Assembly (NCBI GenBank): GCA_037893245.1 | Contig: JBAIAA010000746.1 | Span: forward strand, 668,010 to 732,009 | Length of the DNA: 64,000 nucleotides | Direction: 5' to 3' | From: Crossaster papposus | Lineage: Eukaryota > Echinodermata > Asteroidea > Velatida > Solasteridae | Shown: positions 2,460 through 62,369 of the stretch, in pieces | How positions within the stretch are numbered: position 1 is the stretch's first letter | Layout: each line of letters begins with the position of its first letter | Position numbers and translations under genes: made by a program | Notes under the pieces: generated by a model | Databases searched by the model: none | What the model saw: only the letters and a program-made list of their open reading frames with translations | Told to the model about the DNA's origin: nothing

Positions 2460-5232
2460 TCACACCTGGTGATACATCTTGACTGAGAAGTAGTCAGCCA
2501 CTGCCAGCTGCCCATCCGATGTGAATGTGATTCCTTGGGGATAGTACAAACCCTGTGCAATGCACTTAAGAAATCCACCTTGAGAGTCATAGTGGTGGAT
2601 ATGACCTGTGTCATCATAATCATTATGCATTGCAACATAGATACCTGACCTATCAGTGTACACACCGGTGCAGTACCGTACTGGTTGACCATTGATGGTG
2701 GGTTTGATGATGCGCTGTGTAGTACCATTGCCATCAGCAACATTTACTGTCTGTGGCCATGAACTAATGACAATTTTATCATTGATGTCCACAGCCAGAT
2801 AGTGAGGTTTAACCTCGACTGGTATGGTACGTAGGAGCTGACCATCAGTGGGGCTGTGTTCAGTCAACACCAGCCTCTGGACATCACCTACTAAGATGGT
2901 ACCATTATTCTTGACAGCTACACCCTGGAGGTCAACTGCGGTCTTACCGTCCTCACTCGGTGGCACCGTTAGGAACTCGTAGGCCAGCGTGTTGTCGCTG
3001 TTGAACACCTTCACATGGGATGCGCCATCCTGGACGACCACCAAACGATTGTTGGTGCGTGTAGCTGCGATGCCGCGTGGACCTGTAGGAGTCATGATGT
3101 CAAAACAAACAAACAAACGTATGTAGTTATTGAACAATCTTTTCAACACAGACATTCTTGAAAGAGTGAAAACTGCAGTAAAAGAACTGTCTGTCAAAAA
3201 ATACATTGTCAAGGTTTGGTATACACGCTTCAGAAATCAACGCGTCTTATAATTCACCTGGCATAATCTGTTATGTTTGGTGTTTATTTATGCATCAGAT
3301 TGTGGGACATTTTCTGTGTGGATAATATAAATAAAAAATACACTGCAAAAAATGTGTTTAGCAAGTAAACAATTTTCCAAACACTTTCTTGCTCTCAGTT
3401 TGTAAACGTGTTTAGCATGAATATGAATAGTGTTTATTCATTGAACATTGATGTTTAGAAATTGGACACGGGTGTTTAGCTGCTAAATATGTTGTTAGCA
3501 ACAAAAATGTTTAAACCTGCGTATATCGATGTTTTATACATATGCGAAAATATTTCTTTAATCAAATTCACAGTATTAATGTTTTTTCTCTGTAACTATC
3601 AGATGTTTTTTTTCTTAGACTTTTGATCTTTTGCAAAGAGCTTCAGGAATAAAGCAAATCGAATTACTGAGGTCAAATATTCATTTTTAGTTTGTCCCCT
3701 TTCGAAATTTTGTTTTCATGAAACAAACATTGAGGTTGAAAAACGTTCCTATGCCATGAATACCAACTATTTAATAGATCATTATTCTGTTTCAAATTTA
3801 CAGTTTCAATGGAGTTTTATTTACTTATTTTTAAAACGTATTTGTGAACAATTTAAATACAGAGAATATTAGTGAAGAGCGAAAGCAAATTGTTTAAGTG
3901 CATAATTTCGCAGATGGCAGGTAATTTCAACTTACATCCTTGCATCGGGATTGTGCTTTTCTGGTTGCCATCGATGCTGCAGATCACAACTCGGTGGTTG
4001 TAGCAATCAGTCACTGCAATCTCATCAGGGTGACGAGCAGCAATGTCCCAAGCCACATCAAACTCTCCTGGACCGCTTCCCTGTCTACCAAACTCACCAC
4101 ACAGCTCCCACTTGCCTTCCGTCACTACCACCTCACCCAGACTGATGTCACCAACACCCTCACTCTGCTTGAACTTCAGAAATACCAGCCTGTCGTCAAC
4201 TCTAGGAATAGCCTGACCAGCCAACAGTTTCAAGTCTTTGCTGATTGTAGGATAGAGTGACAGGAAGTCACTATCTGATGCAGTCCTTGTCACCTCTCTA
4301 GCCGTATCTAGTGAAAACTGAAACCTCTCCACAGCCAAGCTTGCAGTTTTCTCACATTCTTCCAGTTTTTTTTCATGATTCGTTTGGATGTTTTTGATTT
4401 CGCCAAGGATGCGATTTTCTTGGGCCGTGATCTCATCTCGTATCTTAGCTGCTCTGTCTCGCACTTCTGTCTTGACCTTCTGAATTCGGAGATTTAAATG
4501 TCCTTTCAGTCTTAAGACGTTTTCTCGTGATTCCTGGATTGCCTTCATTAAGTTTTCAAGTGGAGACATCAATTCAGCCAACGATTGCTTGTAAGTCGAT
4601 GCTGCTTCATCTTCCTCAATGTACAAGTGTTCTGGTTTGCAGTGGTTTACGACAGTACAGTCTCGGCAGATGAGTATTTCACACGTGGTACAAAAGAACC
4701 TTGCTGCTTCGCCCTCGTGGATCGGACATTGTGGATGCTGTTTCAAATGTTTCTTTGTCAGTGTAACCTTCCCCTCACGAATATCCTTTAGTGAAGTCAC
4801 CTTGTGAGTAGAAGAGTTAGCAAATCGAAGATGCATTTTGCTACAGGCTGAGCACACATTCTGGTCGCAGTCCAGACATCGATGCGTTGCCTCGTTTTCC
4901 CCCTCACAAATATCACAGGAAAGACCAGCATCACCCAAGCCCACTACCTTCTCTTGAAGTTCAATCTCCTCAACTAGACCGATTAGATGAAAGTTGGTTT
5001 TCAGACCCTGCACCCCCACCTCTGGAAGTTTCGTCTCCTGTCGACACACGGGGCAAGGAATCTCCGTACAGCCCTGGTGCTTCGTGCTGTAGTATTTCAG
5101 CAGACATTGTTCGCAGAAGTTGTGCAGGCATTCTAGTATCTTAGGCCGTGTGTATCTCTCCTGGCAAATGCAGCACTCAAGATGTCTGCCGATTGTCTCT
5201 AGAGCTGAACTTACTGCAGGTCCAGTCGCCAT
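2460..5232 (-). CDS. TRIM-NHL E3 ubiquitin ligase-like protein, copy A (two exons)
   Basis: Predicted RING-type E3 ubiquitin ligase of the tripartite-motif family with an NHL propeller. Exon 1 is 5232-3936 and exon 2 is 3082-2460, giving 1920 nt and 639 aa. The donor is GAT|GTAAGT and the acceptor CTACAG|GTCC; a split Cys codon (T+GT) keeps the frame. RING: C20, C23, C35, H37, C40, C43, C60, C63. B-box 1: C106, C109, C119, C122, C127, C130, H134, H143. B-box 2: C169, H172, C181, C184, C189, C192, H197, H202. A coiled coil follows at about 205-330. The first NHL repeat is about 378-425 (FGRQGSGPGEF, then IAVTDCYNHRVVI) and exon 2 supplies the rest of the propeller. There is no filamin domain, so the layout resembles TRIM32 or TRIM56-like invertebrate proteins. 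The start ATG has a good Kozak context (ACAAAATGGCG) conserved in all five copies. The substrate is unknown; invertebrate TRIM expansions are often linked to immunity, which is inference here. Confidence 0.9.
3340..3530. promoter_or_regulatory. Intronic TGTTTA/TAAACA cluster, copy A
   Basis: Within the 853-bp intron (3083-3935) the hexamer TGTTTA or its complement recurs at least six times, as in GTGTTTAGC, GTAAACA and TGTTTAT. The cluster is conserved in the introns of copies B and C. TGTTTA/TAAACA is the core of forkhead-type binding sites; a regulatory role is inference. Confidence 0.35.
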
Positions 5233-5270
5233 TTTGTTTTGTCTGAGAAAAAGAAGAAGAATGTGTTCAT

Positions 5271-5504
5271 GTATGTATGTATGTGTTCAGCCCATCATCT
5301 CCATCGATGGAAAATGAAAGACAGCCCTGCATGTGACTGCGGGAACCCAGACCAGACAGTGCAGCATGTGGTAAATGACTGCCTTCTCCGATGTTCCCCT
5401 GATAGTTTTGAGGGGATCCATCCGACAACAGATGCTGCTCTGACCTGGCTGAGAAACTTAGACTTGAATTTATAGAATGTGCATATATGTCATACGAAAC
5501 AAAC
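5271..5504 (+). mobile_element. 5'-truncated LINE, 3' end only
   Basis: Encodes the tail of a non-LTR retrotransposon ORF2: a C-terminal zinc-knuckle of the CDCG...QTVQHVV..C type (codons about 5326-5400), ending at TAG 5473-5475. It is absent from copies B and C, which read TTCATGTATTTATTAAT or similar across this point. A short ATGTAT repeat at both sides is a possible TSD. A (GTAT)n run precedes it. Confidence 0.65.
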
Positions 5505-5600: not shown

Positions 5601-5604
5601 TTAA

Positions 5605-6660
5605 TAGGGATCGACAGAGAGCTCTAGATGTACGTGAATTTGAAAGAAGGGGAAAATCACACTCTTACCGAAACTGCACATTCTCTTCAAACTGCACTGT
5701 CATCACTTTCATTTTATATGTGATTTGTTTTTACATTGCTATTTGCCAATCCAATCTGTTAATGAGAAGGCTGATAATTTTAGAAATAACTTAATTACAT
5801 CCCATCTTGACACCAACAGCCATGCAAGTTGTTACAAAAATATTAAACTGAATTCTATACATAATATTCAGGGAATTAAGATGTGGTTCGAGGTCATGTA
5901 TCATGCATCTTTGACCTTTGATTTTCTCCACTGGTGTTATAGTCCACAGCGGGCATCAATGGGAAGACAGTCTAGATATACAATTATTGTTTGGCGAAAA
6001 TTAATTGAGCACGTGTGTTACTCAAGATGCAGTAGCGACAAGCTACATCACAAAATGTGCAGATATGCAATAAACCATGGAGAAATAAGGAATACATCTA
6101 CACACTGGCAAAAGTATTAAAGATTATACTTAGTAAAGTGCTGTCCAGATGTACAATTAAAATAAGCGCTTGTTAATGTTATGTTTTGAGCATTTGGCAT
6201 TGTACATGTCATGATCATGGAGGAATAAGAAGGAATTCCTCCATGATGTCATGTAGCTGCATGGTCATCGATTATGAAAAAAAACAGCGTCAAGCTGCAA
6301 CATATTCTTTGCCATTTTTCAATTGATCGATATGCTTACTCACATTTTTAAAAAGTTGTCAGTTTGGATGCGAGTTAAAATAAGCAAATCCTTTCAGTTT
6401 CACTCAGTTGTCCTCGACTAAGCGGTAACGCGAAGTACTACAACAAGTACAATAAAGTCGACATGAAATGCAACATGAATAGCGCCCCCAAGAAACGACA
6501 CGCCCAGCGTTCTAACTCTGGTCGTTTTCCAAACCCCAGCTCTAACTTAGGATCTATCGGGCTTCTTCCCAGCACCATTGACGAATTACTGCATGACGAA
6601 GCCAGAACGTAGACGAAGCTGGGGCTTGGACAACGGCTCACATATTCCGGATCCAATGAT
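5605..6660. other. 5' flank of TRIM copy A, no second gene seen
   Basis: Conserved non-coding block shared with all or most copies, including CAGCGTCAAGCTGCAACATATTC near 6290 and a roughly 60-bp block near 6476 containing GCGCCCCCAAGA and CGACACGCCCAGCG. A 131-codon open frame at 5725-6120 is broken in copy B and is not treated as a gene. The region probably holds the TRIM promoter, but no TATA or initiator was assigned. Confidence 0.5.
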
Positions 6661-6975: not shown

Positions 6976-7260
6976 GGAATGCCTGCATATTCATTACAAT
7001 ACAGCACTGTATTAGCATCGATTGTAAAATCAATGTAATATTCGTGCATTTCGAATATTTCCACTTCAGTCTTCTTAATTCTGATTTGGTTGTTTCAAGA
7101 TGTCTTTTCAAGAACGTTATTGTTATATGCCTTATAACTTGTGCATGTTTACATTTAATGGAATTTAAATTGCCACAAATCGTACAGATTCGCCTTTGAT
7201 GCCCCAGAGTATCTGCTTTTTAATTGATCAAATTAAATGTGAACATGTGAACCACAATTT
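6976..7260. other. Conserved run before the 16-bp satellite
   Basis: Non-coding sequence containing ACAAATCGTACAGATTCGCC, also present at about 26275 and 57413. No coding feature seen. Confidence 0.5.
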
Positions 7261-7569
7261 TGGCCCGCGTACGGGCTGGCCCGCGTACGGGCTGGCCCGC
7301 GTACGGGCTGGCCCGCGTACGGGCTGGCCCGCGTACGGGCTGGCCCGCGTACGGGCTGGCCCGCGTACGGGCTGGCCCGCGTACGGGCTGGCCCGCGTAC
7401 GGGCTGGCCCGCGTACGGGCTGGCCCGCGTACGGGCTGGCCCGCGTACGGGCTGGCCCGCGTACGGGCTGGCCCGCGTACGGGCTGGCCCGCGTACGGGC
7501 TGGCCCGCGTACGGGCTGGCCCGCGTACGGGCTGGCCCGCGTACGGGCTGGCCCGCGTACGGGCTGGCC
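7261..7569. repeat. 16-bp satellite array (CCCGCGTACGGGCTGG)n
   Basis: About 19 nearly identical head-to-tail copies of a GC-rich 16-mer containing the palindrome CGTACG. As 16 is not a multiple of 3 and has no stop in any frame, all six frames stay open and give 16-residue pseudo-repeats; these are not genes. A diverged array with unit GCTCGCGTACGGGCTG sits at the same place in block B. Confidence 0.95.
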
Positions 7570-7631
7570 TGAGTTATCTGGTAAAACGCGCAACGTCAAC
7601 GTCAAACGTCACGTCGACGTTTTTAAATCCT

Positions 7632-7799
7632 AATTATATTTCGCTAATTACGGAGACTCACTCAGATTGTATTATGTCTCATGATAACGCAGTCAGTCCA
7701 CCCTTTGAAGTAATGGTATGACCCTATACAAATTCAAATCTTTAGTCAGTAGCCCAGGTACCGGTCGATGTACCAAGACTCCACCATGTAACCTTGTCT
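7632..7799. repeat. DIRS left inverted terminal repeat
   Basis: Starts AATTATATTTCGC and ends ...ACCTTGTCT. It matches the reverse complement of 12406-12565 except for a 10-bp gap (an extra AAAGACCACC-like run on the right side). Confidence 0.85.
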
Positions 7800-7874
7800 T
7801 TGTTTCTTGTGGCGCAGTCGGATAAAGTCGTGTTTTTTCGATTTCTCCACGCGTTAAACATTTTCAACAATAAT

Positions 7875-9320: not shown

Positions 9321-9337
9321 ACAAACTAGTCATCGAT

Positions 9338-11377: not shown

Positions 11378-12184
11378 CAAATGTTCTAACCTTCTTACAG
11401 GAACTGTTGGAAGATGGTCTTCAGTACAGAACACTTAATGTTTATAGATCGGCTATTTCATCTGCACATCGTTTTGTTGAGGGAAAACCCATTGGTCAGC
11501 ACCATCTAGTCACCAGATTTTTCAAAGCAGTCTTTAATTTACGACCACCTAGACCAAGATACAACTCAACTTGGGATGTTTTAAAATATTTTAATAGTCT
11601 TCCGGACAACCGACGTTTAAGCATTAAGCAGCTTTCACTCAAACTGGCTATGTTAATAGCCCTTGTGACAGCAGGTAGATGTTCGTCTTTAATAGCCTTG
11701 GACATCTCCTCCTTTAGAAGAGAGCAAAATGGCAATTGTGTGTTCTGCCTAAAACAGTTAACCAAGTGTGCCTCGGCCCGGAATCCTTACAGAGAGGTGA
11801 CTCTACATAAATACTCTGTGAACAGAAAGTTATGTGTTGTTAGAACTTTAGATGAATACCTGGATCGTACTAGTTCTCTTCGGAGCTTCGAGAGTACTAA
11901 TATCACACAGCTATTCATCTCCTATGGGAAACCACATCACCCAGGGGTGTCATCAACAATTGCGCGCTGGTTGAAAACCACCATGGCTGAAGTTGGTATC
12001 GACACTGCATGCTTCAAGGCGCACTCTACTAGAAGTGCATCTTCTTCAGCGGCGAAGCGAGCAGGTGTTGCTATGAGTGACATTTTGAAGACAGCAGATT
12101 GGTTCATCAAGGACGTTTGCAGCATTTTACTGCAGAAATCCTGAAAAGGCAGATTATAACCAAGGGGTGCTGGCATCGGCTTAG
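10804..12184 (+). pseudogene. DIRS tyrosine recombinase ORF, with a TGA and a frameshift
   Basis: Overlaps the end of ORF2 in another frame, as usual for DIRS. Characteristic blocks are YRTLNVYRSAISSAH near the start of the core, VTAGRCSSLIALD carrying the first catalytic Arg, and KAHSTRSASSSAAKRAG carrying the HxxR pair. A TGA at 11326-11328 interrupts the N-terminal part. An extra T near 12100 (after the codons for TADW) shifts the frame, so the catalytic Tyr region at about 12118-12150 is only in the +1 frame. The protein is therefore dead in this copy. Confidence 0.85.
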
Positions 12185-12202
12185 ATGGGCTTTAAAGTCT
12201 AC

Positions 12203-20351: not shown

Positions 20352-23116
20352 TCACACCTGGTGATACATCTTGACTGAGTAGAGGTCAGCCACTGCCAGC
20401 TGCCCATCTGATGTGAATGTGATTCCTTGGGGATAGTACAGACCCTGTGCAATGCACTTGAGAAATCCACCTTGAGGGTCATAGTGGTGGATATGACCTG
20501 TGTCATCACCATTACGCATTGCAACATAGATACTTGAGCTATCAGTGTACACACCGCTGCAGCGCTGTACTGGTTGACCATTGATGGTAGGTTTGATGGT
20601 GCGCTGTGTAGTACCATTGCCATCAGCAACATTTACTGTCTGTGACTCTGAACTGATGACAATTCTATCATTGCTGTCTACAGCCAGATAGCGAGGTTTA
20701 ACCTTGACTGGTATGGTACGTAGGAGCTCACCATCAGTGGGGCTGTGTTCAGTCAACACCAGCCTCTTGGCATCACCTACTACGATGGTACAATCATTCC
20801 TGACAGCTACACTACAGTGGGCAACTGCAGTCTTACGGACCTCATTTGGTGGCACTGTTGGGAACTCGTAGGCCAGCGTGTTGTCGCTGTTGAACACCTT
20901 CACATGGGATGCGCCATCCTGGACGACCACCAAACGATTGTTGGTGCGTGTAGCTGCGATGCCGCGTGGACCTGTAGGAGTCATGATGTAAAAACAAACA
21001 AACAAACGTATGCAGTTATTGAACAATCTTTTCAACACAGACATTCTTGAAAGAGTGAAAACTGCAGTAAAAGAACTGTCTGTCAAAAAATACATTGTCA
21101 AGGTTTGGTATACACGCTTCAGAAATCAACGCGTCTTATAATTCACCTGGCATAATCTGTTATATTTGGTGTTTATTTATGCATCAGATTGTGGTACATT
21201 TTCTGTGTGGATAATATAAATAAAAAATACACTGCAAAAACTGTGTTTAGCGAGTAAACAATTTTCCAAACACTTTCTTGCTCTCAGTTTGTAAACGTGT
21301 TTAGCATGAATATGAATAGTGTTTAGTCATTGAACATTGATGTTTAGGAATTGGACACAGGTGTTTAGCTGCTAAACATGTTAACTGTTAGCAACAAAAA
21401 TGTTTAAACCTGCATATATCGATGTTTTATACATATGCGAAAATATTTCTTTAATCAAATTCACAGTATTAATGTTTTTTCTCTGTAACTATCAGATGTT
21501 TTTTTCTTAGACTTTCCATCTTTTGCAAAGAGCTTCAGGAATAAAGCAAATCAAATTACTGAGGTCAAATTTCCATTTTTAGTTTGTACTTGAAATTTTG
21601 TTTTCATGAAACAAACATTGAGGTTGAAAAAGATTCCTATGTCATGAGTACCAACTTATTCAGTAGATCATTATTTTGTTTCAAATGTACAGTTTTTAAG
21701 GAGTTTGATTTACTTTTTTTTTATCTTATTTAAAAAAAAATAATAATACAGAGAATATTAGTGAAGAGCGAAGGCAAATTGTTCAAGTGCATAATTTCGC
21801 AGATTGTGTAATTTCAACTTACATCTTTGCATCGGGATCGTGCTTTTCTGGTTGCCATCGATGCCGCAGATTACAACTCGTTGGTTCCAGTGGTCAGTCA
21901 CTGCAATCTCATTAGGGTGACGAGCAGCAATGTCCCAAGCCCCAATAAACTCCCCTGGACCGCTTCCCTTCCTACCAAACTCACCACACAGCTCCCATTT
22001 GCCTTCCGTCACCACCTTACCCAGATTGATGTCACCAATACCCTCACTCTGCATGAACTTCAGAAATGCCAGCCTGTCATTTACTCTAGGAATAGCCTGA
22101 CCAGCCAACAGTTTCAAGTCTTTGCTGATTGTAGGATAGAGTGACAGGAAGTCACTATCTGATGCAGTCCTTGTCACCTCTCTAGCCGTATCTAGTGAAA
22201 ACTGAAACCTCTCCACAGCCAAGCTAGCGGTTTTCTCACATTCCTCCAGCTTCTGCTCACGATCTGTTTGGATGTGTTTGATATCGTCAAGGATGCGATT
22301 TTCCTGAGCCGTTACCTCTGCTCGTATCTTAGCAGCTCTGTCTTGCACTTCTGTCTTGACCTTCTGAATTGTGAGATTTAAATCTTCTTTCAGTCCTAAG
22401 ACATTTTTTCGTGATTCCTGGATTGCCTTCATTGAGTTTTCAAGTGGAGAAATCAGTTCAGCCAACGATTGCTTGTAAGTCGATGCTGCCTCATCTCCCT
22501 CAATGTACAAGTGTTCTGGCTTACAGTGGCCAACGACGGTACAATCTCGGCAGATCAACACTTCACATGTCGTACAAAAGAACCTTGTTGCTTCGCCCTT
22601 GTGGATCAGACATTTGGGATGTTGTTTTGAATGTTCCTTTGTCAGTGTAACCTTCCCCTCACGAATGTCCTTCAGTGGAGTCACCTTGTGGTTTGAAGAG
22701 GAAGCAAATCGAAGATGTGTTTTGCTACAGGCTGGGCACACATTCTGGTCGCAGTCCAGACATCGATGAGTTGCCTCGTTTTCCCCCTCACAAATATCAC
22801 AGGAAAGACCAGCATCACCCAAGCTCACTACCTTCTCCTGAAGTTCAATCTCCTCAACCAGACCGATTAGATGAAAGTTGGTTTTCAGACCCAGCACCCC
22901 CGCCTCTGGAAGTTTCGTCTCCTGTCGACACACAGGGCAAGGAATCTGTGTACAGCCCTGGTGCTTCGTGCTGCAGTAATTCAGCAGACATTGTTCGCAG
23001 AAGTTGTGCAGGCATTCTAGTAACTTAGGCTGTTTGTATCTCTCCTGGCAAATGCAGCACTCAAGATGTCTGCCGATTGTTTCTAGAGCTAAACTTACTG
23101 CAGGTCCAGTCGCCAT
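20352..23116 (-). CDS. TRIM-NHL E3 ubiquitin ligase-like protein, copy B (two exons)
   Basis: Exon 1 is 23116-21823 and exon 2 is 20971-20352, 1914 nt and 637 aa. The donor AGAT|GTAAGT and acceptor CTACAG|GTCC are as in copy A and the split codon again yields Cys. The RING (C20, C23, C35, H37, C40, C43, C60, C63), both B-boxes, the coiled coil and the first NHL repeat (FGRKGSGPGEF) are intact. One codon is missing relative to copy A in the linker before NHL (GKVVTEG against GEVVVTEG). Exon 2 differs from copy A mainly in propeller loops, for example VAHCSVAVRND. No nonsense codon or frameshift was seen, so this copy looks functional. It is closest to copies A and C; function as for copy A. 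Confidence 0.9.
21240..21412. promoter_or_regulatory. Intronic TGTTTA/TAAACA cluster, copy B
   Basis: Same motif cluster as in copy A, inside the 851-bp intron 20972-21822. Copies include TGTGTTTAGCGAGTAAACA and GTTTAGCTGCTAAACATG. Confidence 0.35.
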
Positions 23117-34635: not shown

Positions 34636-36207
34636 AAATTTCGGAAGAATACAGCCCAAAAGGTTGTATTTATAAAAACAAATATAAATAAGAACAACAT
34701 CAAGTTATTTACTTTATGAACATTATTATTTGTTCGAACTTTGATTAATATTAGTACCTACTCCGATGAAAATGTTTTAAGTACTGTCCATGTAAAGTAA
34801 TATTTTATGAACAACGATATTTAACGTAAATGTACATAGATATATTTATGTACGAGGGATTGTAAGCCTGCGCCCCTGCCATCATTAAAGAAATGTACAA
34901 TGTAAATGACATGTACATGTATACAGTTCGACTAACTTCCTCCAAAAAAGTGTCCATCCAACAGAGGTATTACCTTTTGGTGGTTTGTTTTATTGGGAAA
35001 ATATACGTTATTCTGCCAAAAGAAATAATGTGGCTTTCAGTGTCATCATGGGTTGTAGAAACACAATGAATTATTAAGCCATCTTCATTTATGATCATTA
35101 GCATCAATCTTTATTTCTTTCTTTAAAGCATGCTGGTTCTCTATGACAGCTAGTACATACATTTTTTTCTGAATAATATGGATAGTATTAAACTCTGTTA
35201 CAATAGATAAATAAGGGCTATTCTTGTTTGTTCTCTCAATGTCTATTAAAAAAAAAAATTTTGTTTAATGTGTTGCTATTGCCTAAAACACGTTATTTTG
35301 AACGTAGTTTTTCACTGCACATCATTAGGTCCTATCTTTCAGTGCACTTACTTGAATGTCAAGTTGTTGATTTTTATTATGTTTTGCCTGAAAATACACC
35401 TCTGCATAAAGCAAAAAAACATTACTTTATTCAGTTTCCACTGGAACCTGCATATTAGATCAATTTTGTTTGTCAGCAAATACTTCCATACTTTAACCCC
35501 AACTCTCTAGGGTGTGTGCAAAATCATATTGATTTTAACAGATTTGGGAGGGTTAGGGGTATTTGCTTTCCACAAACATTCAAAAGCTTTTGTTTTGGCG
35601 ATATAATACTTTCAACACACAGTGTGGTGGTTTTTAATGCAATTCTTTTTATGCATTTTTATTTTAGATCACTGGAATCCCATCCTGGTTCAACCTGAAA
35701 TATAACAACAGTGAGGAAATATACAATTACCAGCTATGAAGGGACTACAATAAAGAGGACCTAAGAATACTCATTCATGGAAATAGGATCCCATTAAACA
35801 CCCTTTATCTAATATTTTGAGCTGCTTTTGATTTGTTATTTTTAGTAATACCCTGCACCATACCCACGGAATAACTAAGGCCGGACATATACCCCTTTAA
35901 TGGACCATGACTTCAACATACTTTAAGATATATAAATTTATAATTTGTAGTATCATTGATTTTCTATTTTGAAGATATTTCCAATGACATCTACCAAGTT
36001 TGTTATATTTGGACCAAGACATAAAAAAATACCTTAATTTATTTCACATTCCGTTGGCGCAGCCTGTTTGATAATAGGAACCATTCGATTTTGATACGCG
36101 TACGGGATACTGATGCGGCTCGAAAAAGTAGCCCATTAGATTATCGTTTTGCGTTGTTATTTCATCAGGTACACTATCGGGAATTTACATCTATTTTAAT
36201 CTCTTAT
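34636..36207. other. Non-coding sequence specific to blocks D and E
   Basis: Replaces the NHL exon and intron found in A-C. Landmarks are AATACAGCCCAAAAGGTTG and TTTGATACGCGTACGGGATA. Homology to A-C begins abruptly at the exon word CTATCC. No gene recognised; a possible plus-strand splice acceptor at 35665 (TTTTAG) has no supported exon. Confidence 0.55.
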
Positions 36208-36312
36208 AGGATAGAGTGACAGGAAGTCACTATTTGACACAGTCCTTGTCACCTCTCTAGCTGTATCTAGTGAAAACTGAATCCTCTCCACAGCCAAGCT
36301 CGCGGTTTTCTC

Positions 36313-37197
36313 TCATTCTTCCAGTCTCTTCTCACGATCCGCCTGGATGCATTTCATGTCGTCAATGAGGCGATTTTCCTGAGCCGTTATCTCTGCTCGT
36401 ATCTTAGCTGCTCTGTCTTGCACTTCTGTCTTGACCTTCTGAATTGTGAGATTTAAATCTTCTTTCATTCTTAAGACTTTTTTTCGTGATTCTTGGATTG
36501 TCTTCATTGAGTTTTCAACTGGAGACATCAGTTCAGCCAACGATTGCTTGTAAGTCGATGCTGCCTCGTCTATCTCAATGTACGAGTGTTCTGGCATACG
36601 GTGGTTTACGACAGTACAGTCTTGGCAGATGAGTATTTCACACGTGGTACAAAAGAACCTTACTGCTTCGCCCGCATGGATCAGACATTTCGGATGTTGT
36701 TTCTGATGTTTCTTTGTCAGTGTAACCTTCCCCTCACGAATGTCCTTCAGTGGAGTCACCTTGTGGTTTGAAGAGGAAGCAAATCGAAGATGCATTTTGC
36801 TACAGGCTGAGCACACATTCTGGTCGCAGTCCAGACATCGATGAGTTGCCTCGTTTCCCCCCTCACAAATATCACAGGAAAGACCAACATCACCCAAGCC
36901 AACTACCTTCTCCTGAGGTTCAATCTTCTCAACCAGACCGATTGGATGAAAGTTGGTTTTCAGACCCAGTACCCCCGCCTCTGGAAGTTTCGTCTCCTGT
37001 TGACACACGGGGCAAGGAATCTCCGTACAGCCCTGGTGCTTCGTGTTGCAGTATTTCAGCAGACATTGCTCGCAGAAACTATGCAGGCATTCTAGTAACT
37101 TAGGCTGTTGATATTGCTCCTGGCAAATGCAGCACTCAAGTAGATGTCTGCTGATCGTCTCTACTAGAGCTGAACTTACTGCAGGTCCAGTCGCCAT
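36313..37197 (-). CDS. Truncated TRIM protein, RING/B-box/coiled coil only, copy D
   Basis: 294 aa, from the same ATG context as the full-length copies. RING C22, C25, C37, H39, C42, C45, C62, C65; two complete B-boxes follow, then about 90 residues of coiled coil ending EKRLEE. Two single-codon insertions (Val12 and an extra Leu before the RING) distinguish D and E from A-C. The stop is a TGA where A-C have TGT (Cys). Beyond it the frame stays homologous and open to about 36208, where similarity ends at SLYP. No NHL exon follows within the block. It could be a functional RBCC-only ligase or dominant partner, or a young pseudogene; the shared intact 294-codon frame in E favours the former slightly. 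Confidence 0.7.
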   Translation of the reverse strand: MATGPAVSSALVETISRHLLECCICQEQYQQPKLLECLHSFCEQCLLKYCNTKHQGCTEIPCPVCQQETKLPEAGVLGLKTNFHPIGLVEKIEPQEKVVGLGDVGLSCDICEGGNEATHRCLDCDQNVCSACSKMHLRFASSSNHKVTPLKDIREGKVTLTKKHQKQHPKCLIHAGEAVRFFCTTCEILICQDCTVVNHRMPEHSYIEIDEAASTYKQSLAELMSPVENSMKTIQESRKKVLRMKEDLNLTIQKVKTEVQDRAAKIRAEITAQENRLIDDMKCIQADREKRLEE

Positions 37198-38080
37198 TTT
37201 GTTTTGTCTGTGAAAAAGAATCAGAATGTGTTTAGATTATTTGATTAATAGGGATCAAAAGCCAGAGCTCTAGATGTACGTGATTTTGAAAGAAGGGCAA
37301 AATCACACTCTTACTAAAACCGCACATCCTCTTCAAACTGTCATCCCTTTCATTTTAGTTTTGTTTATATAATGCTATTTGGCGCAATTATGTGAGCACA
37401 ATCGGTGTGTTACTGTAGATGCAGGGAGGCCAGTCTGAATGTGCAGATATGCAATAAACTAGTAATAACCACAGCTTTATACCGGGTACTGTCAAAAGTA
37501 TTCAATATGAATGAATTTAATACTTAGTTAAGTGCCGTCCAGATAATTATGTATAATGACAATAAGCACTTGTTATTTTTTCAGCATTTTGGCATTGTGC
37601 CTGCATGCTGCATTGTCATTGACATTATATGACAATGACATTGATTTCTATGAAAAAAACAGCGTCACTTGCAGGCGGCAACATATTCTTTCCCATTTCC
37701 CTATTGACTGATAATAATATTATTTGCTCACATTTTTTAAGTTTCCGGTTTGGATGGTAACACCGTTAAAGTTTCCGCCGATGCGAGTTGAAATAAGAAA
37801 ACCTTGCACTTTCAGTCACTTTTTTCATCGAAGCAGTATCACGGAAGTACAACTCGGAATGGAATGCAACATGAAGAGCGCCCCCAATAGACGACACGCC
37901 CAGCGTTCTGACTCTGGCCGTTTTTTAAACCCCAGTTAGGATTCACTGAGCTTCGAGCTTCATCACCATTGACGAATTACTGCATGAACGGATTGGAGAC
38001 GAAGCTGGGGCTTGGAAAACGGCTCACATTTCCTCTATATCCCCATATCGGGTTGGGAAATGATGGGGAATGGGGTGGGA
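37198..38080. other. 5' flank of TRIM copy D
   Basis: Diverged version of the conserved flank, including the ATGAAGAGCGCCCCCAATAG block near 37871. No second gene. Confidence 0.5.
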
Positions 38081-48711: not shown

Positions 48712-51700
48712 TCACACCTGGTGATACATCTTGACTGAGTAGAGGTCAGCCACTGCCAGCTGCCCATCTGATGTGAATGTGATTCCGAGGGGACAGAGCA
48801 GACCCTGTGCAATGCACTTGAGAAATCCACCTTGAAGGTCATAGTGGTGGATATGTCCCGTGTTATCACCATTTTGCATTGCAACATAGATACCTGAGCT
48901 ATCAGTGTACACACCGCGGCAGCACTCTACTGGTTGACCATTGATGGTGGGTTTGATGGTGCGCTGTGTAGTACCATTGCCATCAGCAACATTTACTGTC
49001 TGTGACCAGGAACTAATGACAATTCTATCATTGCTGTCTACACCCAGATAGTAAGGTGCAACCTTGACTGGTATGGTACGTAGGAGCTCACCATCAGTGG
49101 GGCTGTGTTCAGTCAACACCAGCTTCTTGACATCACCTACTACGATGGTACCATCATTCTTGACAGCTACACTCTGGAGGTCAACTGCGGTCTTACGGAC
49201 CTCACTCGGTGGCACCGTTAGGAACTTGTAGGCCAGTGTGTTGTCGCTGTTGAACACCTTCACATGGGATGCGCCTACCTCAACGACCACTAAACGATTG
49301 TTGGTGCGTGTAGCTGCGATGCTGGATGTACCTGTAGGAGTCATAATGTCAGAACAAACAAACGACCATTATGCAGTTATTGCACAATCCTTTCAACACA
49401 GACATTCTTGAAAGAGCGAAAACTGCGGTAAAAAAAAAATTTGTCAAGGAATACATTATCAAGGTTTGAAATACACGCTTCAGAAATTAACGCATCTTAT
49501 AATTCATCTTGCATAATCTGGTTATGTTTGGTGTTTATCTATTCATGCCCCAGATTGTGGGTCATTTTCTGTGTAAATAATGGGCGATACATATATAAAA
49601 AAGGTCTTTCATGCCAACAAATGATAAACATACACTGCGAAAACTGTGTTTAGCGAGTAAACACTTTTCTAAACACTTTCTTGCTATCAGTTAGTAAACG
49701 TTACATGCTGAACATGTTTAGTTTGAGGATGGATAGTGTTTAGTCATTGAACATTGATGTTTAGGATTTGGATATGGGTGTTTAGCTGCTAAACATGTTA
49801 ACTGTAAGCAAACAAAGTCTGTTTACTTGGTAAACACAGCTTTTGGAGTGTAAACTCGCATACCAATTTTTAAGCTAAAATATTTCTTTAACAAAATTCA
49901 CAGTATTTAATTTTTCTGTAACTATCAGATGTATTGTTCTTGGAGCTTGAAGAATACAAAAAATCAATTTACTGAGGTCAAATTTCCACTTTTGAAATTT
50001 GGTTTTCATGAAATGTACATTGAGATTAAAAAACATTCCCATGTCATGAATACCAACTTATGAAATAGATTATTATTTCCTTTTTAGTTTCAATAGGGTT
50101 TTATTTACTTTTGTTTTTCTTATTTGTTAAACATTTAAATACAGGGAATCTTAGTAAAGAGCGAAGGCAAATTGTTTCAGTGCATAATTTCGCAGATGGC
50201 AGGTAATTTCAACTGACATCCTTGCATCGGGATCGTGCTTTTCTGGTTGCCAAACATTCACAGTATTTAATTTTTCTGTAACTATCGATGTATTTTTCTT
50301 GGACTTCCCATCTTTTGCAACGAGCTTCAGGAATAAGGTCAAATTTCCATTAAGGATAAGGTTTATCCAATTTTGAAATTTGGTTTTTATGGAATATTGC
50401 AGTTAACCAGTTCGTGCCGGATGACGTATACACGGTAAATTTTTTCGAGATTCGAAACGAATAACAAATAAACACGTCCCGAGCAAGGCCCCCAAAAATC
50501 GTTTACTATCCACGGATGACGTGTTAATTCATCAGGCACAGCAGTTTAATTCCGCAGAGGACACGTACGCAAAAAGTTGCGGTTGATGTGTACAACGTAT
50601 TTATGCCAAAAGTTACCCAGTAGCGCTTCGGAGGACGGGTATACACGACTGACATAATGGCATACACGCGGTGGACGTGAATATACGTCAACGTTGCCCA
50701 GCATGCCTTGTTCACATGGTGGACGTGTAAATACACTATATTGTGGTATCACGCTTCAGTGATTAGGCCTATTCAACAAGCTAGCTCCATGGATTATCAG
50801 CTGCGTCCAGTAATTTCTTGACATTCAAATTCACTAACTATTGTTCCTTAGTTTCCTTTGAAATTCTTGAAAGGGTGCTTTTCAGCTGGGCTTGCAAATA
50901 TTTGTATATACATTACCGCGCACAATTGTCTCCGACCCGGTGTGTAGTTCCACGGATGGCGTATGTATACACGCAAGCCTCAAATTTAAAAATTTTCTTC
51001 ACTTACCTACCACTTACCCACCTGTGATTTTCCACTTACCCACTTTCAAGAATGACTTACCCAAAACCGGCTTATCAAATAAAGCATGATTAATCTTCTG
51101 CAAAAGTAATATTTGAGATCTTGCCACAGAATTGCCATGGGAATCACAGATAAGTTTACCCTACTGGTAAAAACCCAAACTTTTAAAGTTGTTTTATTTT
51201 TTATTAAAACACACACAGGAAAATTTGGCAAGATTTGGCAAGATAATTTTCCAGTTGTAATTAGAAAATGGTTTGATGTACAACCACAATAACATTTGTT
51301 CACTTTTGTCCGCACTCCGCAGGATGGCAGATGAACCAAGGAAATTGCATGATTGATCAACACTATATCGTCTGAAATTTGTTGTTGCTTTGCAGGTTTT
51401 GAACAGTTAGGTTTGTTTTTTTAATTTGAAAAAAATGTACACTCTAAACCGCAATTAAAAAACTGAAAACACAATTATGTTTAAAACCAATCCTTTGGTA
51501 CAAATCTGTCGCTTAGAACTTCATAATTTCAAAAATGCCGATAATAAAAAGCAAATGGCTCAAGCATTTTGTTGAAACTGCAAGTACTTTTTGCCTCATT
51601 TTGCTTTTACAGGTTTCACATTTTAAATGAGCGGGGATTTCTTTAGAGTAACCAACAAAACACACATAAAAATGAAATAAAAAAAAAAAAAAAAAAAAAA

Positions 51701-54616
51701 AAAATAAGAGAAAAATCAACCCCCCCCCCCCATCCCCTCCAAAAAGTGTAAAACAAGTTTTAAGACTTTGCAAATTGAACTCCAAAAACTCCCCCCCCCC
51801 CCCCCCCAAGAAAAAAACCCAATTTTTCCTCTGATTTGCATGTGGAAACTCCAGAATAAACGTTGTCGTTATATTCTACTGATACTGCAGTGTAATTCAC
51901 CCATTCATCATTCATGGGGGACACGGGCGCCACCGATCGAAAGACATGAACGTTCATTGATAAAAACAAATCACTTTACCCTGCAAGAAATGGTCTTTTA
52001 AAACAAGATCTCGTCCGATATCATTTACCTACAAGGACCAATGCCTGCTAAAACAATGGGCTCCTTTTAGTGACAAAGACAAACACTGTGAAAGTCACTT
52101 AACACCCACTAAAGTTAAATTTCAAGTACGTTGATGGTTGACATCGTTGATCGGCATGCGCTACAATATTATTGGACATATAGTTCGTGACAAAATGCCA
52201 CTGTAATGATTCTGAAGCAAGGTCGAGTGCAACTAGCAGTACGATCTACACGTACGTGTTCACTCCACGGACTGTTTTATAAATAAACTGGCACCCCAGC
52301 TGTGCAGACATTATGACTAGCACTATTTCAGTCTGGATATCGGACCATACTTGTACTTTATGCGATGCATGTGCTTGCTGTGCGCGCGCTGTACTTCGAC
52401 ACAAGCAGTGCATTTAAATGGGGACAGGGCGTACACCAAATTATAGCTAAGTTGCCTTAGTAAAAGTAGAAAACATTCACACAATTCGATTCTTCGATTA
52501 TAAATCATTTCTTTATCATATTTCATCATGATAATCATACTTTAAAGTCACTTACCCAGCAACTTACCCATTTTAAAAAATCACTTACCGCCGAAAAAAA
52601 TCACTTACCGCCGGTAATTAAGTGGGTAAGCGTTAATTTCGAGGCTTGTTAATACACGTGTCAGATTTTATGGCGGGTAGCAGTTGTAGTACTTGTACAT
52701 GTCATATTATGACGCCCTGCTGCAGAGAGAAAAATGCCCTAAGCGACAGAATATTGGCAAAAATAGGTAAATAACGGTGCTAATAAAGTAAGTGTTGACA
52801 TCTTGTAGTAGTTGCATTATCAAAACAGGAATATTTTACTAAATAAAAAACTAATTTGTTTCCATGAAAAATAATCCCGCCAGTGTTCTCGACAATAAAC
52901 TTGTTCTTGAAATTAAACCCGCCGCGAACTGGTTAACCAGTTCGCGCCAGATGACAAATTTAAAACGGATAACGCATAAACACGCCAAGTTCAAGTTCGG
53001 AAATATCTGTCAGCAGCGAGCAAGGCCGGAAATGCGTGGGTGTGCTTCCCGGCACTATCAGCCTGATGAACCCGCTTCGGATTGAGTTTCGTTAAAAATA
53101 ATCCCGCCCCTCGGCTCGGTAATGTTAAAATAATCCCGGCGCGAACTGGTTAAAAAACATTCCCTTGCTATGAATACTAACTTTGTAGTTTCAAATGATT
53201 TTTATTAACTTTCTTTTTAAAACCTTATTTGTAAAAAAATTAAAAGAGAATATTAGTGAAGAGCGAAGGCAAATTGTTCAAGTGCATAATTTCACAGATG
53301 GCAGGTAATTTCAACTTACATCCTTGCATCGGGATAGTGCTTTTCTGGTTGCCATCGATGCTGCAGATCACAACTCGTTGGTTGTAGATGTCAGTCACTG
53401 CAATTTCATCAGGGTGACGAGCAGCAATGCCCAAAGCCCCATCGAACTCTCCTAGACCGCTTCCCTGTCTACCAAACTCACCACACAGCTCCCACTTGCC
53501 TTCCACCACTACCACCTCACCCAGACTGATGCCACCAACACCCTCACTCTGCTTGAACTTCAGAAATGCCAGCCTGTCATCAACTCTAGGAATAGCCTGA
53601 CCAGCCATCAGTTTCAAGTCTTTGCTGATTGTAGGATAGAGTGACATGAAGTCACTATCTGATGCAGTCCTTGTCACCTCTCTAGCTGTATCTAGTGAAA
53701 ACTGAAACCTCTCCACAGCCAAGCTAGCGGTTTTCTCACATTCCTCCAGCTTCTGCTCACGATCCGTTTGGATGCGTTTGATATCGTCAAGGATGCGATT
53801 TTCCTGAGCCGTTACCTCTGCTCGTATCTTAGCTGCTCTGTCTTGCACTTTTGTCTTCACCTTCTGAATTGCGAGATTTAAATCTTCTTTCAGTCCTAAG
53901 ACATTTTCTCGCGATTCCTGGATTGCCTTCATTGAGTTTTCAAGTGGAGACATAAGTTCAGCCAACGATTGCTTGTAAGTCGATGCTGCCTCATCTCCCT
54001 CAATGTACAAGTGCTCTGGCTTACAGTGGCCTACGACGGTACAATCTCGGCAGATCAACACTTCACATGTAGTACAAAAGAACCTTGCTGCTTCGCCCTC
54101 GTGGATCGGACATTTTGGATGTTGTTTTGAATGTTTCTTTGTCAATGTAACATTCCCCTCACAAATGTCCTTCAGTGGAGTCACCTTGTGGTTTGAAGAG
54201 TTAGCAAACCGAAGATGCATTTTGCTACAGGATGAGCACACATTCTGGTCGCAGTCCAGACATCGATGAGTTGCCTCGTTTCCCCCCTCACAAATATCAC
54301 AGGAAAGACCAGCATCACCCAAGCCCACTACCTTCTCCTGACGTTCAATCTCATCAACCAGACCGATTAGATGGAAGTTGGTTTTGAGACCCTGCACCCC
54401 CGCCTCTGGAAGTTTCGTCCCCTGTCGACACACGGGGCAAGAAATCTTTGTACAGCCCTGGTGCTTCGAGCTGTAGTATTTTAGCAGACATTGTTCGCAG
54501 AAGTTATGCAGGCATTCTAGTATCTTAGGCTGTTGATATTGCTCCTGGCAAATGCAGCACTCAAGATGTCTGCTGATTGTCTCTAGAGCTGAACTTACTG
54601 CAGGTCCAGTCGCCAT
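48712..54616 (-). CDS. TRIM-NHL E3 ubiquitin ligase-like protein, copy C (two exons, long intron)
   Basis: Exon 1 is 54616-53320 and exon 2 is 49331-48712, 1917 nt and 638 aa. The donor GGAT|GTAAGT and acceptor CTACAG|GTAC keep the frame through the same split Cys codon. RING, both B-boxes, the coiled coil and NHL are intact; the first NHL repeat is FGRQGSGLGEF. Exon 2 lacks the ProArgGly found after the junction in A and B (ThrSerSer instead). The intron has grown to 3988 bp by a local duplication and TE insertions, so splicing efficiency is open to question, although all coding parts and splice sites are preserved. Role as for copy A. Confidence 0.85.
49640..49855. promoter_or_regulatory. 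Intronic TGTTTA/TAAACA cluster, copy C
   Basis: About ten TGTTTA or TAAACA hexamers in some 215 bp, including the inverted pair TGTTTACTTGGTAAACA near 49828. Richer than the clusters of A and B. Confidence 0.4.
49890..50253 (-). pseudogene. Duplicated intron segment with remnant of TRIM exon 1 end
   Basis: Repeats the intron sequence and the last roughly 40 nt of exon 1 (about 50213-50251) inside the intron of copy C. The remnant still has a GT at its exon border, but as GTCAGT rather than GTAAGT. The second copy of the same intron segment starts at about 50254 and continues after the TTAA elements at 53154. Confidence 0.75.
50407..52932. mobile_element. TTAA-flanked DNA transposon 1 (2.5 kb)
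   Basis: TTAA at 50403-50406 and 52933-52936. TIRs CCAGTTCGTGCC and the near complement of CCAGTTCGCGGC. Contains the nested element 50974-52648. No transposase recognised. The sibling intron segment near 50016 keeps the empty site ATTAAAAAACATTCCC. Confidence 0.8.
50974..52648. mobile_element. Nested TIR element with CACTTACC repeats
   Basis: Ends CAAGCCTCAAA and the complement of CAAGCCTCGAAATTAACG. Both subterminal regions have direct CACTTACC or GGTAAGTG repeats. TSD candidates TATACACG and AATACACG are offset by 2 nt. Internally it has an A29-type tract and C runs (51680-51810). The termini are hAT-like, a weak call. Confidence 0.55.
52937..53149. mobile_element. TTAA-flanked MITE 2 (213 bp)
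   Basis: Shares TTAA 52933-52936 with element 1 and has TTAA at 53150-53153. TIRs CCAGTTCGCGCC and exact complement. Its left and right ends resemble those of element 1 (ATAAACACG, GAGCAAGGCC, AATAATCCCG), so it is a short member of the same family. Confidence 0.85.
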
Positions 54617-59765: not shown

Positions 59766-59766
59766 A

Positions 59767-61384
59767 ATTTCGAAAGGATACAGCCCAAAAGGTTGTATTT
59801 ATAAAAACAAATATAAATAAGAACAACATCAAGTTATTTACTTTATGAACATTATGATTTTTTCGAACTTTGATTAATATTAGTACCTACACCGATGAAC
59901 ATATTTTAAGTACTGTCCATGTAAAGTAATATTTTATGAACAACGATATTTAACGTAAATGTGCATAGATATATTTATGTACGAGGGATTGTAAGCCTGC
60001 GCCCCTGCCATCATTAAAGAAATGTACAATGTAAATGACATGTATACAGTTTGAAATGTAGTGTTCTATTAAATGACTAACTTCCTCCCAAAAGGTGTCC
60101 ATCCAACAGAGGTATTACCTTTCTGGTGGTTTGTTTTATTGGGAAAATATACGTTATTAAATGCAATTCTGCCAAAACAAATAATGTGGCTTTCAGTGTC
60201 ATCATGGGTTGTAGAAACACAATGAATTATTAAGCCATCTTTATTTATGATCATTAGCATCAATCTTTATTTCTTTCTTTAAAGCATGCTGGTTCTCTAT
60301 GACAGCTAGTACATACATTTTTTTCTGAATAATATGGATACTATTAAACACTGTTACAATAGATAAATAAGGACTATTATGAGTATAATTCTTGTTTGTT
60401 CTCTTAATACAATGTCTATTTAAAAAAAAGATTGTTTAATGTGTTGCTATTGCCTAAAACACGTTGTTTTGAACGTAGTTTTTCACTGCACATCAATATA
60501 TAAATTAGGTCCTATTTTTCAGTGCACTTACTTGCATGTCAAGTTGTTGATTTTTATTATGCTTTGCCTGAAAATACACCTCTGCATAAAGCAAAAAAAA
60601 CATTAATTCATTCAGTTTCCACTGGAACCTGCATATTAGATAAATGTTGTTTGTCAGCGAATACTTCCATACTTTAACCCCAACTCCCTAGGGTGTGTGC
60701 AAAATTATATTGATTTTAACAGATTTGGGAGGGTTAGGGGTAAATATTATGCTTTCCACAACAATTCAAAAGCTTTTGTTTTGGCGATATAATACTTTCA
60801 ACACACAGTGTGGTGGTTTTTAATGCAATATTTCTATGCATTTCTATTTCAGATCACTGGAATCCCCTCCTGGTTCAACCCGAAATATAACGAAATATAA
60901 CGAAAGGATTATCATAAAGAGGACCTACATGTAAGAATACTAATTTATGGAAATAGGATCCCATTAAACACCCTTTCTCTAATATTTTGAGCTGCTTTTG
61001 ATTTGTTATTTTTAGTAATACCCTGCACCAAGCCTGCGGAATAACTAAGGCCGGACATATACCCCTTTAATGGACCATGACTTCAACATACTTTAAGATA
61101 TATAAATTTATAATTTGTAGTATCATTGGTTTTCTATTTTGAAGATCTTTCCATTGACATCTACCAAGTTTGTTATATTTGGACCAAGACATAAAAAACT
61201 ACTTAAATTTATTTCACATTCCGTTGGCGCGGCCTGTTTGATAATAGGAACCTATTCGATTTTGATACGCGTACGGGATACTGATGCGGCTCGAAAAAGT
61301 AGCCCATTAGATTAACGTTTTGCGATGTTATTTCATTACGTACACTATCGGCAATTTACATCTCATTTTAATCTCTTGTAGGAT
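59767..61384. other. Non-coding sequence shared with block D
   Basis: Counterpart of 34636-36207 with small indels. No gene recognised. Confidence 0.55.
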
Positions 61385-61484
61385 AGAGTGCCAGGAAGTC
61401 ACTATTTGATACAGTCCTTGTCAACTCTCTAGCTGTATCTAGTGAAAACTGAATCCTCTCCACAGCCAAGCTCGCAGTTTTCTC

Positions 61485-62369
61485 TCATTCTTCCAGTCTC
61501 TTCTCACGATCCGCCTGGATGCGTTTCATGTCGTCAATGATGCGATTTTCCTGAGCCGTTATCTCTGCTCGTATCTTAGCTGCTCTGTCTTGCACTTCTG
61601 TCTTGACCTTCTGAATTGTGAGATTTAAATCTTCTTTCATTCTTAAGACGTTTTCTCGTGATTCCTGGATTGCCTTCATTGAGTTTTCAAGTGGAGACAT
61701 CAGTTCAGCCAACGATTGCTTGTAAGTTGATGCTGCCTCTTCTATCTTAATGTACGAGTGTTCTGGCATACGGTGGTTTACGACAGTACAGTCTCGGCAG
61801 ATGAGTATTTCACACGTGGTACAAAAGAACCTTACTGCTTCGCCCGCATGGATCGGACATTTCGGATGTTGTTTCTGATGTTTCTTTGTCAGTGTAATCT
61901 TCCCCTCACGAATGTCCTTCAGTGGAGTTACCTTGTGGTTTGAAGAGGAAACAAATCGAAGATGCATTTTGCTACAGGCTGAGCACACATTCTGGTCGCA
62001 GTCCAGACATCGATGCGTTGCCTCGTTTCCCCCCTCACAAATATCACAGGAAAGACCAGCATCACTCAAGCTCACTACCTTCTCCTGAGGTTCAATCTGC
62101 TCAACCAGACCGATTAGGTGAAAGTTGGTTTTCAGACCCGGCACCCCCGCCTCTGGAAGTTTTGTCTCCTGTTGACACACGGGGCAAGGAATCTTTGTAC
62201 AGCCCTGGTGCTTCGTGCTGCAGTATTTCAGCAGACATTGCTCGCAGAAACTATGCAGGCATTCTAATATCTTTGGCTGTTGATATTGCTCCTGGCAAAT
62301 GCAGCACTCGAGAAGATGTCTGCTGATCGTCTCTACTAGAGCTGAACTTACTGCAGGTCCAGTCGCCAT
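61485..62369 (-). CDS. Truncated TRIM protein, RING/B-box/coiled coil only, copy E
   Basis: 294 aa, same length and same two codon insertions as copy D. RING C22, C25, C37, H39, C42, C45, C62, C65, two B-boxes and coiled coil ending EKRLEE are intact. The same TGA replaces the Cys codon of A-C. Downstream, homology continues to about 61385 and stops at the same exon word (CTATCCTACA) as in D. No NHL exon follows. D and E differ by scattered substitutions (for example Asn or Ser in KYCNTKH/KYCSTKH) without breaking either frame. Confidence 0.7.
   Translation of the reverse strand: MATGPAVSSALVETISRHLLECCICQEQYQQPKILECLHSFCEQCLLKYCSTKHQGCTKIPCPVCQQETKLPEAGVPGLKTNFHLIGLVEQIEPQEKVVSLSDAGLSCDICEGGNEATHRCLDCDQNVCSACSKMHLRFVSSSNHKVTPLKDIREGKITLTKKHQKQHPKCPIHAGEAVRFFCTTCEILICRDCTVVNHRMPEHSYIKIEEAASTYKQSLAELMSPLENSMKAIQESRENVLRMKEDLNLTIQKVKTEVQDRAAKIRAEITAQENRIIDDMKRIQADREKRLEE

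Follow-up and report, generated by a model that had tools for sequence, protein, structure and literature searches.

The stretch of DNA analysed here (the window, 64,000 nucleotides) forms the end of contig C746, which comprises 732,009 bases, and contains five related genes, A to E, whose products are predicted to be E3 ubiquitin ligases of the TRIM family, based on their RING, B-box and predicted coiled-coil domains and, in A to C, on their NHL domains. An initial annotation of the window had described a same-strand, duplicated cluster of receptor-like E3 ligase genes with two architectures, and this description was supported: all five copies were recovered at their assigned places on the minus strand (Table 1), A, B and C join two coding exons in the way proposed, and D and E have indeed lost the NHL half. 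The results described below suggest that the cluster belongs to a very large germline family of TRIM-NHL ligases, which probably constitutes a recognition repertoire with a diversified ligand-binding face.

In genes A, B and C, the end of exon 1 encodes the first blade of an NHL propeller and exon 2 the remaining five, as judged from a hand alignment. The introns of A and B have sizes of 853 and 851 bp, respectively, and all three introns possess GT-AG borders in phase 1, which split a cysteine codon into T and GT. The spliced frames are open and encode proteins of 639 (A), 637 (B) and 638 (C) amino acids (aa). A polypyrimidine-CAG acceptor-like site is located 13 bases 5' of the ATG in 13 of the 13 copies examined, which points to an upstream untranslated exon. 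Pfam matches to the zf-C3HC4 RING and to the B-box (PF00643, two stretches each) exceeded the cut-off in A to E, and the zinc-ligand patterns of the RING and of both B-boxes are complete in all nine undamaged exon 1s. In the coiled-coil region, the hydrophobic fraction at a/d positions is 0.48-0.50 compared with 0.27-0.32 elsewhere (best of seven frames); Pfam coiled-coil matches are weak and below cut-off. The NHL repeat (PF01436) was detected in exon 2 with 35.1 (A), 32.5 (B) and 26.7 (C) bits at a cut-off of 20, and the propeller of A matches the solved NHL domains of Thin, TRIM71, TRIM3, TRIM2 and Brat. Six blades could be placed by hand alignment; the AlphaFold model, which was built for exon 2 alone from 3 sequences, is poor, with a mean predicted local distance difference test score (pLDDT) of 48.4. 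Pfam searches up to E 0.1 yielded no filamin family in exon 1 of A, B and C, in which the linker comprises around 91 aa, no B30.2/SPRY match in A, B and C, and no NACHT, WD40 or death domain in these frames. Judged by these predicted domains, the full-type genes have a TRIM-NHL (class VII) architecture without a detectable filamin domain.

Table 1. Coding exons, truncated copies, duplicated segments and mobile elements in the window. RBCC, RING, B-boxes and coiled coil; RT, reverse transcriptase.
Feature	Position	Strand	Remarks
Gene A, coding exon 1	3936..5232	-	RING, two B-boxes, coiled coil, linker, NHL blade 1
Gene A, coding exon 2	2460..3082	-	NHL blades 2-6 and stop codon
Gene B, coding exon 1	21823..23116	-	
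Gene B, coding exon 2	20352..20971	-	NHL blades 2-6
Gene C, coding exon 1	53320..54616	-	
Gene C, coding exon 2	48712..49331	-	NHL blades 2-6; intron enlarged to 3,988 bp
Copy D, RBCC-only frame	36313..37197	-	294 aa, TGA at codon 295 (stop included)
Copy D, relic	36204..36312	-	remainder of exon 1 after the nonsense codon
Copy E, RBCC-only frame	61485..62369	-	294 aa, same TGA as D (stop included)
Copy E, relic	61376..61484	-	remainder of exon 1 after the nonsense codon
Duplicated segment around A	1713..5278	-	matched by 19670-23162 at 89%
Truncated-type duplicated segment around D	34637..37434	-	matched by 59766-62608 (E) at 92%
Element with RT frame and tyrosine-recombinase-like frame	7653-12562		RT frame 9423-10724 (above Pfam cut-off); tyrosine-recombinase-like frame 11329-12144 (just below cut-offs)
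Element with RT frame	40749-45123		RT frame 41418-43040 (Pfam RVT_1 just under cut-off); inverted repeats ~84-86%

The initial annotation spoke of an ongoing local expansion. The tandem cluster exists; however, this view turned out to be too narrow, since the window is one end of an array that continues on the same strand into the adjoining 150 kb and since related exons are found throughout the genome. In the 214 kb formed by the window and the adjoining sequence, which was read in 10-kb tiles, the array comprises 14 units, namely eight full-type copies (F1-F5, A, B and C), four truncated copies (T1, T2, D and E) and two fragments of broken exon 1s. All eight full-type copies have an open exon 2, and exon 1 is intact in five of them (F4, F5, A, B and C). 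Splice signals are likewise kept in all eight; the split codon encodes cysteine in six copies and tyrosine (T and AT) in F1 and F2, which lie outside the window. Two AATAAA/ATTAAA signals are located 77-108 bases 3' of the exon-2 frame in each of the eight copies. Copy F1 (contig C746, 530115-531500; L020) carries three donor-bearing repeats of the exon-1 end, encoding blade 1, in front of a single exon 2, some of which are out of frame.

A search of the 1.02-Gb genome with the exon-2 protein of A gave 1,120 candidate matches, and the genome-wide figures given here cover the best 150 of these, the weakest of which scored E 8e-105. All of these 150 lack an internal stop codon, they are spread across 45 contigs, and neighbouring pairs on one contig share the strand in 99 of 105 cases. 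In a neutral simulation with 0.03 to 0.06 changes per site, 150 open frames out of 150 had a probability below 1e-34 if copies are treated as independent, a figure that serves as a guide only, because the copies are related and the score ranking favours intact ones. The genome thus contains at least 150 open exon-2 copies and could contain several hundred, some of which may be allelic duplicates in an unphased assembly. Ten exon-2 copies on contig C375 (1775346-3477026) lie on one strand at distances of 129-303 kb; nine of them score 358.7 bits and one 359.2 bits, and this run is either a very recent large-scale tandem amplification or an effect of the assembly. A further near-identical subgroup of the EED-CHVKVFHS type (L028, L030, L031, L035, L037 and L038) is, unlike the arrays, dispersed on six contigs (C343, C466, C123, C306, C22 and C877) and is possibly carried by a mobile element. 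A separate open frame of 880 aa on contig C231 (241283-242071; L001-L003, L006 and L008) with six NHL matches is around 24-26% identical to A across the RBCC part and is probably a conserved single TRIM-NHL gene.

The central question is how selection acts on the two exons, of which exon 2 had been regarded as free to diversify. Pairwise ratios of nonsynonymous to synonymous changes (dN/dS) among A, B and C are 0.32-0.53 for exon 1 and 0.91-1.24 for exon 2, and the RBCC part has a dN/dS of 0.39 in the five intact full-type copies. The exon-2 mean is therefore near 1, but it is strongly heterogeneous along the propeller; a ratio close to 1 all along, which the initial annotation had named as counting against its reading, was not observed. 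Between A, B and C, residues vary at 34 of 73 top-loop positions compared with 21 of 178 other positions (p 7.5e-9; blade 1 included), and synonymous changes are not enriched in the top loops; three-state sites in these three genes did not differ significantly between top and bottom loops (p 0.66). In the eight array copies, the top loops reach a dN/dS of 2.65 (0.060 to 0.225; ranges in brackets are intervals of dN-dS) and the strands 0.36. The site model M2a was preferred over M1a with twice the log-likelihood difference (2dlnL) at 132, and 14 of the 16 sites with a posterior above 0.9 fall in top loops. With separate trees for five or two segments, 2dlnL amounted to 98.8 and 118.6, and simulated nulls, fitted on a fixed tree, reached at most 9.5 (20 runs without recombination) and 14.0 (20 runs with recombination).

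These results were reproduced in an independent set of 40 further exon 2s from 37 contigs, which were chosen from the score list before their residues had been seen, all of which are open, and of which 36 remained after near-duplicates at 98% identity (L030, L037, L048 and L063) had been dropped. In the 36 copies, dN/dS is 2.63 (0.081 to 0.183) in the top loops, 0.30 (-0.117 to -0.017) in the bottom loops, 0.49 (-0.066 to -0.014) in the strands and 1.02 in the whole exon. The 2dlnL rose to 502, and 17 of the 19 sites with a posterior above 0.95 are located in top loops, whose mean entropy is 0.93 in comparison to 0.16 for bottom loops and 0.22 for strands. The mean near 1 can thus be understood as a mixture of constrained strands and bottom loops with positively selected top-face loops, and the idea that exon 2 as a whole is free to diversify has to be abandoned in favour of a single diversifying face.

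The position of the selected sites can be compared with an RNA-binding NHL domain. Published work is cited here by PMC identifier and drawn on for part of each text. Kumari et al. describe ten residues with which TRIM71/LIN-41 touches RNA, and alanine changes of these residues, in four sets, relieved repression (PMC5908797). When placed on the TRIM71 sequence printed in that paper with a single numbering offset, all ten fall on four positions per blade, the two flanking P in the x-P-x-G motif of the blade-entering loop and two in the D-x-x-N motif of the B-C loop. Among the 19 register positions that exon 2 possesses, 15 of the 19 selected sites of the 36-copy set are found (p 6e-16), and shifting the register by 1 to 6 residues, which was used as a safeguard for its placement by hand, captures only 0-6 of them. 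In the eight-copy set, 13 of 16 selected sites are in register, and blade 1, which is encoded by exon 1, varies at the same B-C positions (410 C/H/I/Y and 411 Y/W/S/A/G in the eight copies). Tyr, Trp, Arg, Asn, His and Cys are more frequent in the register than in the rest of exon 2, with 13.2% Tyr and 5.0% Trp compared with 3.6% and 0.0%. The resulting face words are unique in 42 of 44 copies, and pairs of copies differ on average at 12.3 of the 19 positions. Since the selected face coincides with the RNA face of LIN-41, RNA or ribonucleoprotein is a serious candidate ligand; protein ligands appear as possible as RNA, because copies range in the net charge of this face from -2 to +6.

D and E end at the same change, from TGT to TGA at codon 295, after which homology continues for around 110 bp of relic before the sequences diverge, and all four truncated copies share this single truncating event and have kept the 294-aa frame open. 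Their RBCC part has a dN/dS of 0.45 (n=4; dN-dS -0.077 to -0.013), and because this interval lies below zero, the short RBCC-only proteins appear to be kept by purifying selection. Copy F5 (contig C746, 655778-658986; L017/L018) is of the truncated type in its 5' flank and approximately its first 210 residues and of the full type in the rest, which suggests that exchange has taken place between the two classes.

Several observations weigh against a face-focused repertoire or limit the evidence for it. Loop labels were drawn by hand from NHL alignments after A to C had been seen, the register was likewise set by hand after the variation had been seen, with blades lacking P or D placed by alignment, and the likelihoods come from a home-made GY94 code. 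The pattern is weaker when strands are instead defined by the low-confidence AlphaFold model and loop classes by strand order: the top loops then have a dN/dS of 1.85 (0.022 to 0.147), the bottom loops 0.33 and the strands 0.72 (-0.043 to 0.005); within the top loops, the D-A part alone has 1.33 (-0.040 to 0.104) and the B-C part 3.46; and the 19 selected sites are distributed over top loops (11), bottom loops (0), strands (5) and a stretch without assigned strands (3). Constraint on the bottom loops is not seen in the eight-copy set (1.24; -0.056 to 0.073), where the interval for the B-C loops alone also includes zero. Blade 1 as a whole does not exceed 1 (0.71; -0.193 to 0.054). The register misses four of the 19 selected sites (436, 555, 589 and 612), and four of its own 19 positions were not called selected (452, 483, 542 and 586). 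Copies resembling A are over-represented in the sample, and some contigs may hold alleles of others. Three of the eight full-type copies have a damaged exon 1, namely F1 through a rearrangement, F2 through a frameshift and F3 through an interruption of ~1.1 kb. For the truncated copies, the interval excludes zero for the RING and for the whole RBCC part but not for the B-boxes or the coiled coil taken singly, and the coiled coil of D and E has a dN/dS of 1.58 on 7 changes. Finally, the charge of the face is not uniformly basic, as that of an RNA binder might be.

Three further explanations for the diversity of exon 2 were considered and rejected or weakened. Adenine-directed mutagenesis is known from bacterial diversity-generating retroelements; in the 16 selected codons, the variable first and second positions are nearly even in composition (A 78, C 62, T 58 and G 58). 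A nonsynonymous divergence far above neutral for the whole exon was rejected; the low divergence between the A and B introns is a local tract (18 of 646 sites differ, compared with 91 of 673 in the 3' flank). Recombination of face modules in short tracts was weakened by a test modelled on the pairwise homoplasy index, in which incompatible sites were not clustered spatially (p 0.76), even though incompatibility was found for 57% of the site pairs. Recombination surely occurs, but it cannot on its own place the selected sites in blade register.

The main duplicated blocks in the window are 81-92% identical across 1-3.6 kb, far beyond chance, and as they include the non-coding flanks, the copies can be regarded as segmental duplications. 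The duplication of A and B continues upstream in further blocks, with 5601-6125 matching 23162-23711, and divergence between copies is mosaic, with tracts visible in flanks and exon 1. The same 16-bp tandem repeat is present upstream of A (7197-7638) and of B (26257-26570) and was therefore probably carried by the duplication. Retroelement frames are located between array units: the element at 7653-12562 is bounded by 134-bp inverted repeats with 100% complementarity and is a DIRS-like retrotransposon, and the element at 40749-45123 looks Penelope-like. A frame at 16814-17398 with a C-terminal HTH_Tnp_4 match below the Pfam cut-off is perhaps the start of a DDE transposase, and a 12-bp tandem repeat at 38222-38845 creates long spurious open frames on both strands.

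Taken together, the family is probably a recognition repertoire, in which a constrained scaffold would carry a face selected to differ and be coupled to a RING E3 ligase. Each copy would bind a different ligand on its top face, either RNA or protein of non-self and most likely viral origin, or RNA of transposons; multimerisation would be mediated by the coiled coil, and the RING would mark the ligand or start signalling by ubiquitination. RBCC-only copies of the D and E type could be retained proteins that enter assemblies with full-type members and modulate them. Novel combinations on the face would arise by point mutation under selection together with some exchange between copies. The role of such a repertoire is perhaps immune. 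In its most specific form, which we put forward tentatively and would not yet favour, hundreds of germline TRIM-NHL ligases with faces in LIN-41 register would form an anticipatory repertoire capturing and ubiquitinating foreign RNA or ribonucleoprotein, convergent with fungal WD40 receptors and vertebrate TRIM-B30.2 restriction factors.

Two alternatives deserve to be weighed against a repertoire directed at non-self. The face might recognise partner proteins of the same species, as the HNWD proteins of fungi do, and thereby act in allorecognition or as a self-marker rather than against pathogens. The closest geometric parallel is indeed the WD40 propeller of Podospora HNWD proteins (HET-D/HET-E), in which each repeat has selected codon pairs on the top face, both in the d-a loop and in the b-c turn, that flank a constrained residue (PMC1805685), and the chemically mixed residues and variable charge of the face would suit protein partners. 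However, a family of which the best 150 matches are all open, arranged in many arrays, resembles a broad repertoire more closely than it does a small number of incompatibility loci, and NACHT and death domains are missing from these frames at the threshold given above; we consider allorecognition unlikely. A role in RNA regulation, in which the proteins would follow rapidly changing transcripts of the host itself or of transposons, for instance in germline silencing, seems about equally improbable. It is suggested by the action on RNA of the TRIM-NHL protein Mei-P26 (PMC9070667) and of C. elegans NHL-2 (PMC6351104), by the use of the selected positions for RNA in LIN-41 and by the retroelements inside the array; against it stand the face charge, which is not uniformly positive, and the filamin domain, which precedes NHL in LIN-41 and was not found by Pfam in exon 1 here.

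Two other explanations fare far worse. Exon 2 might decay or be homogenised, with the dN/dS pattern produced by recombination, biased gene conversion or the home-made code, and the mean dN/dS of around 1, the mosaic divergence and the three damaged exon 1s would fit such relaxed constraint or artefact. This is very improbable, as both sets show top loops with a dN/dS above 1 and a dN-dS interval wholly above zero as well as constrained strands, the larger set also shows constrained bottom loops, none of the best 150 matches has a stop, nulls with recombination stay at or below 14.0 compared with the observed 132, and the selected sites obey the blade register. The view of a recent local expansion with a whole NHL exon free to drift, which tandem same-strand copies with shared flanks and the long low-divergence intron tract of A and B had favoured, can hardly be upheld either, given a genome-wide family that varies mainly on one face and in which copies on the same contig show no excess similarity (non-register amino-acid identity of 0.901 within and 0.906 between contigs, 32 and 914 pairs, a biased comparison, in which C746 supplies 28 of the 32 within-contig pairs and the remaining copies had been selected for their similarity to A).

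The proposed TRIM-NHL repertoire shares features with several known systems. Its full-type members resemble TRIM71/LIN-41, TRIM2/3, TRIM32, Thin/Abba, Brat and Mei-P26 in having a RING, two B-boxes, a predicted coiled coil and C-terminal NHL repeats and, unlike the TRIM71/TRIM2/TRIM3 subclass, have no filamin domain that could be found. To our knowledge, TRIM-NHL members are few per genome. NHL-containing TRIM proteins are generally placed in group 1, the conserved wing of the TRIM family, and fast evolution and antiviral recognition are generally credited to the SPRY/B30.2 wing. This division into a conserved group 1, which is present in invertebrates, and a fast-evolving SPRY-type group 2, which is absent from them, was proposed in PMC2533329. 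The positions that vary here are those at which TRIM71 contacts RNA. NHL subfamilies have been noted to differ strongly in their upper, RNA-binding surface (PMC5908797); in the LIN41 subfamily, however, contact residues are mostly identical across species, whereas here they are diversified among at least 150 copies in one genome.

A functional parallel within the TRIM family is provided by finTRIM and TRIM5-alpha, which are tandem-expanded E3 ligases with positively selected loops in their C-terminal recognition domain (PMC2657112), just as the top-face loops described here are positively selected beside a constrained RBCC part (dN/dS of 2.63 and 0.39). The proportion of sites above 1 under M2a is also similar, with 15.6% for B30.2 sites (PMC2657112) and 15.9% for the 36-copy set. 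Unlike in these proteins, the recognition domain is an NHL propeller and not B30.2/SPRY. Rapid tandem expansions of very similar TRIM genes in animals and a possible link to external aggression were remarked on in PMC3503706; an NHL family with a diversified face is not named in the part of that text drawn on here. HNWD repeats are near-identical and are exchanged within and between genes (PMC1805685), whereas the blades of one gene are not near-identical here. The two systems further differ in their propeller (WD40 in HNWD, NHL here) and in their effector, which is a NACHT/HET module in HNWD and a RING E3 ligase here. The Sp185/333 proteins of sea urchins are unrelated and contain neither TRIM nor NHL domains. 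Their genes are similar to the present family in that they are clustered, segmentally duplicated and diversified immune genes (PMC5103432). A literature search, judged by titles and the beginnings of abstracts and with most subscription journals outside its coverage, revealed, among the papers listed, none that deals with an NHL family that is hypervariable or under positive selection, and TRIM genes are not mentioned in the searched part of PMC12373286.

If the reading as a recognition repertoire is true, a TRIM-NHL family with face-focused selection would mean that the receptor logic of SPRY/B30.2 proteins has been invented on a different domain. The family would then be an exception to the group division of PMC2533329, provided that the host is an invertebrate. 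It would also offer a natural library of many NHL faces, from which it could be learned how this fold reads its ligands, and as the selected sites are named and the copies located, the proposal is directly testable.

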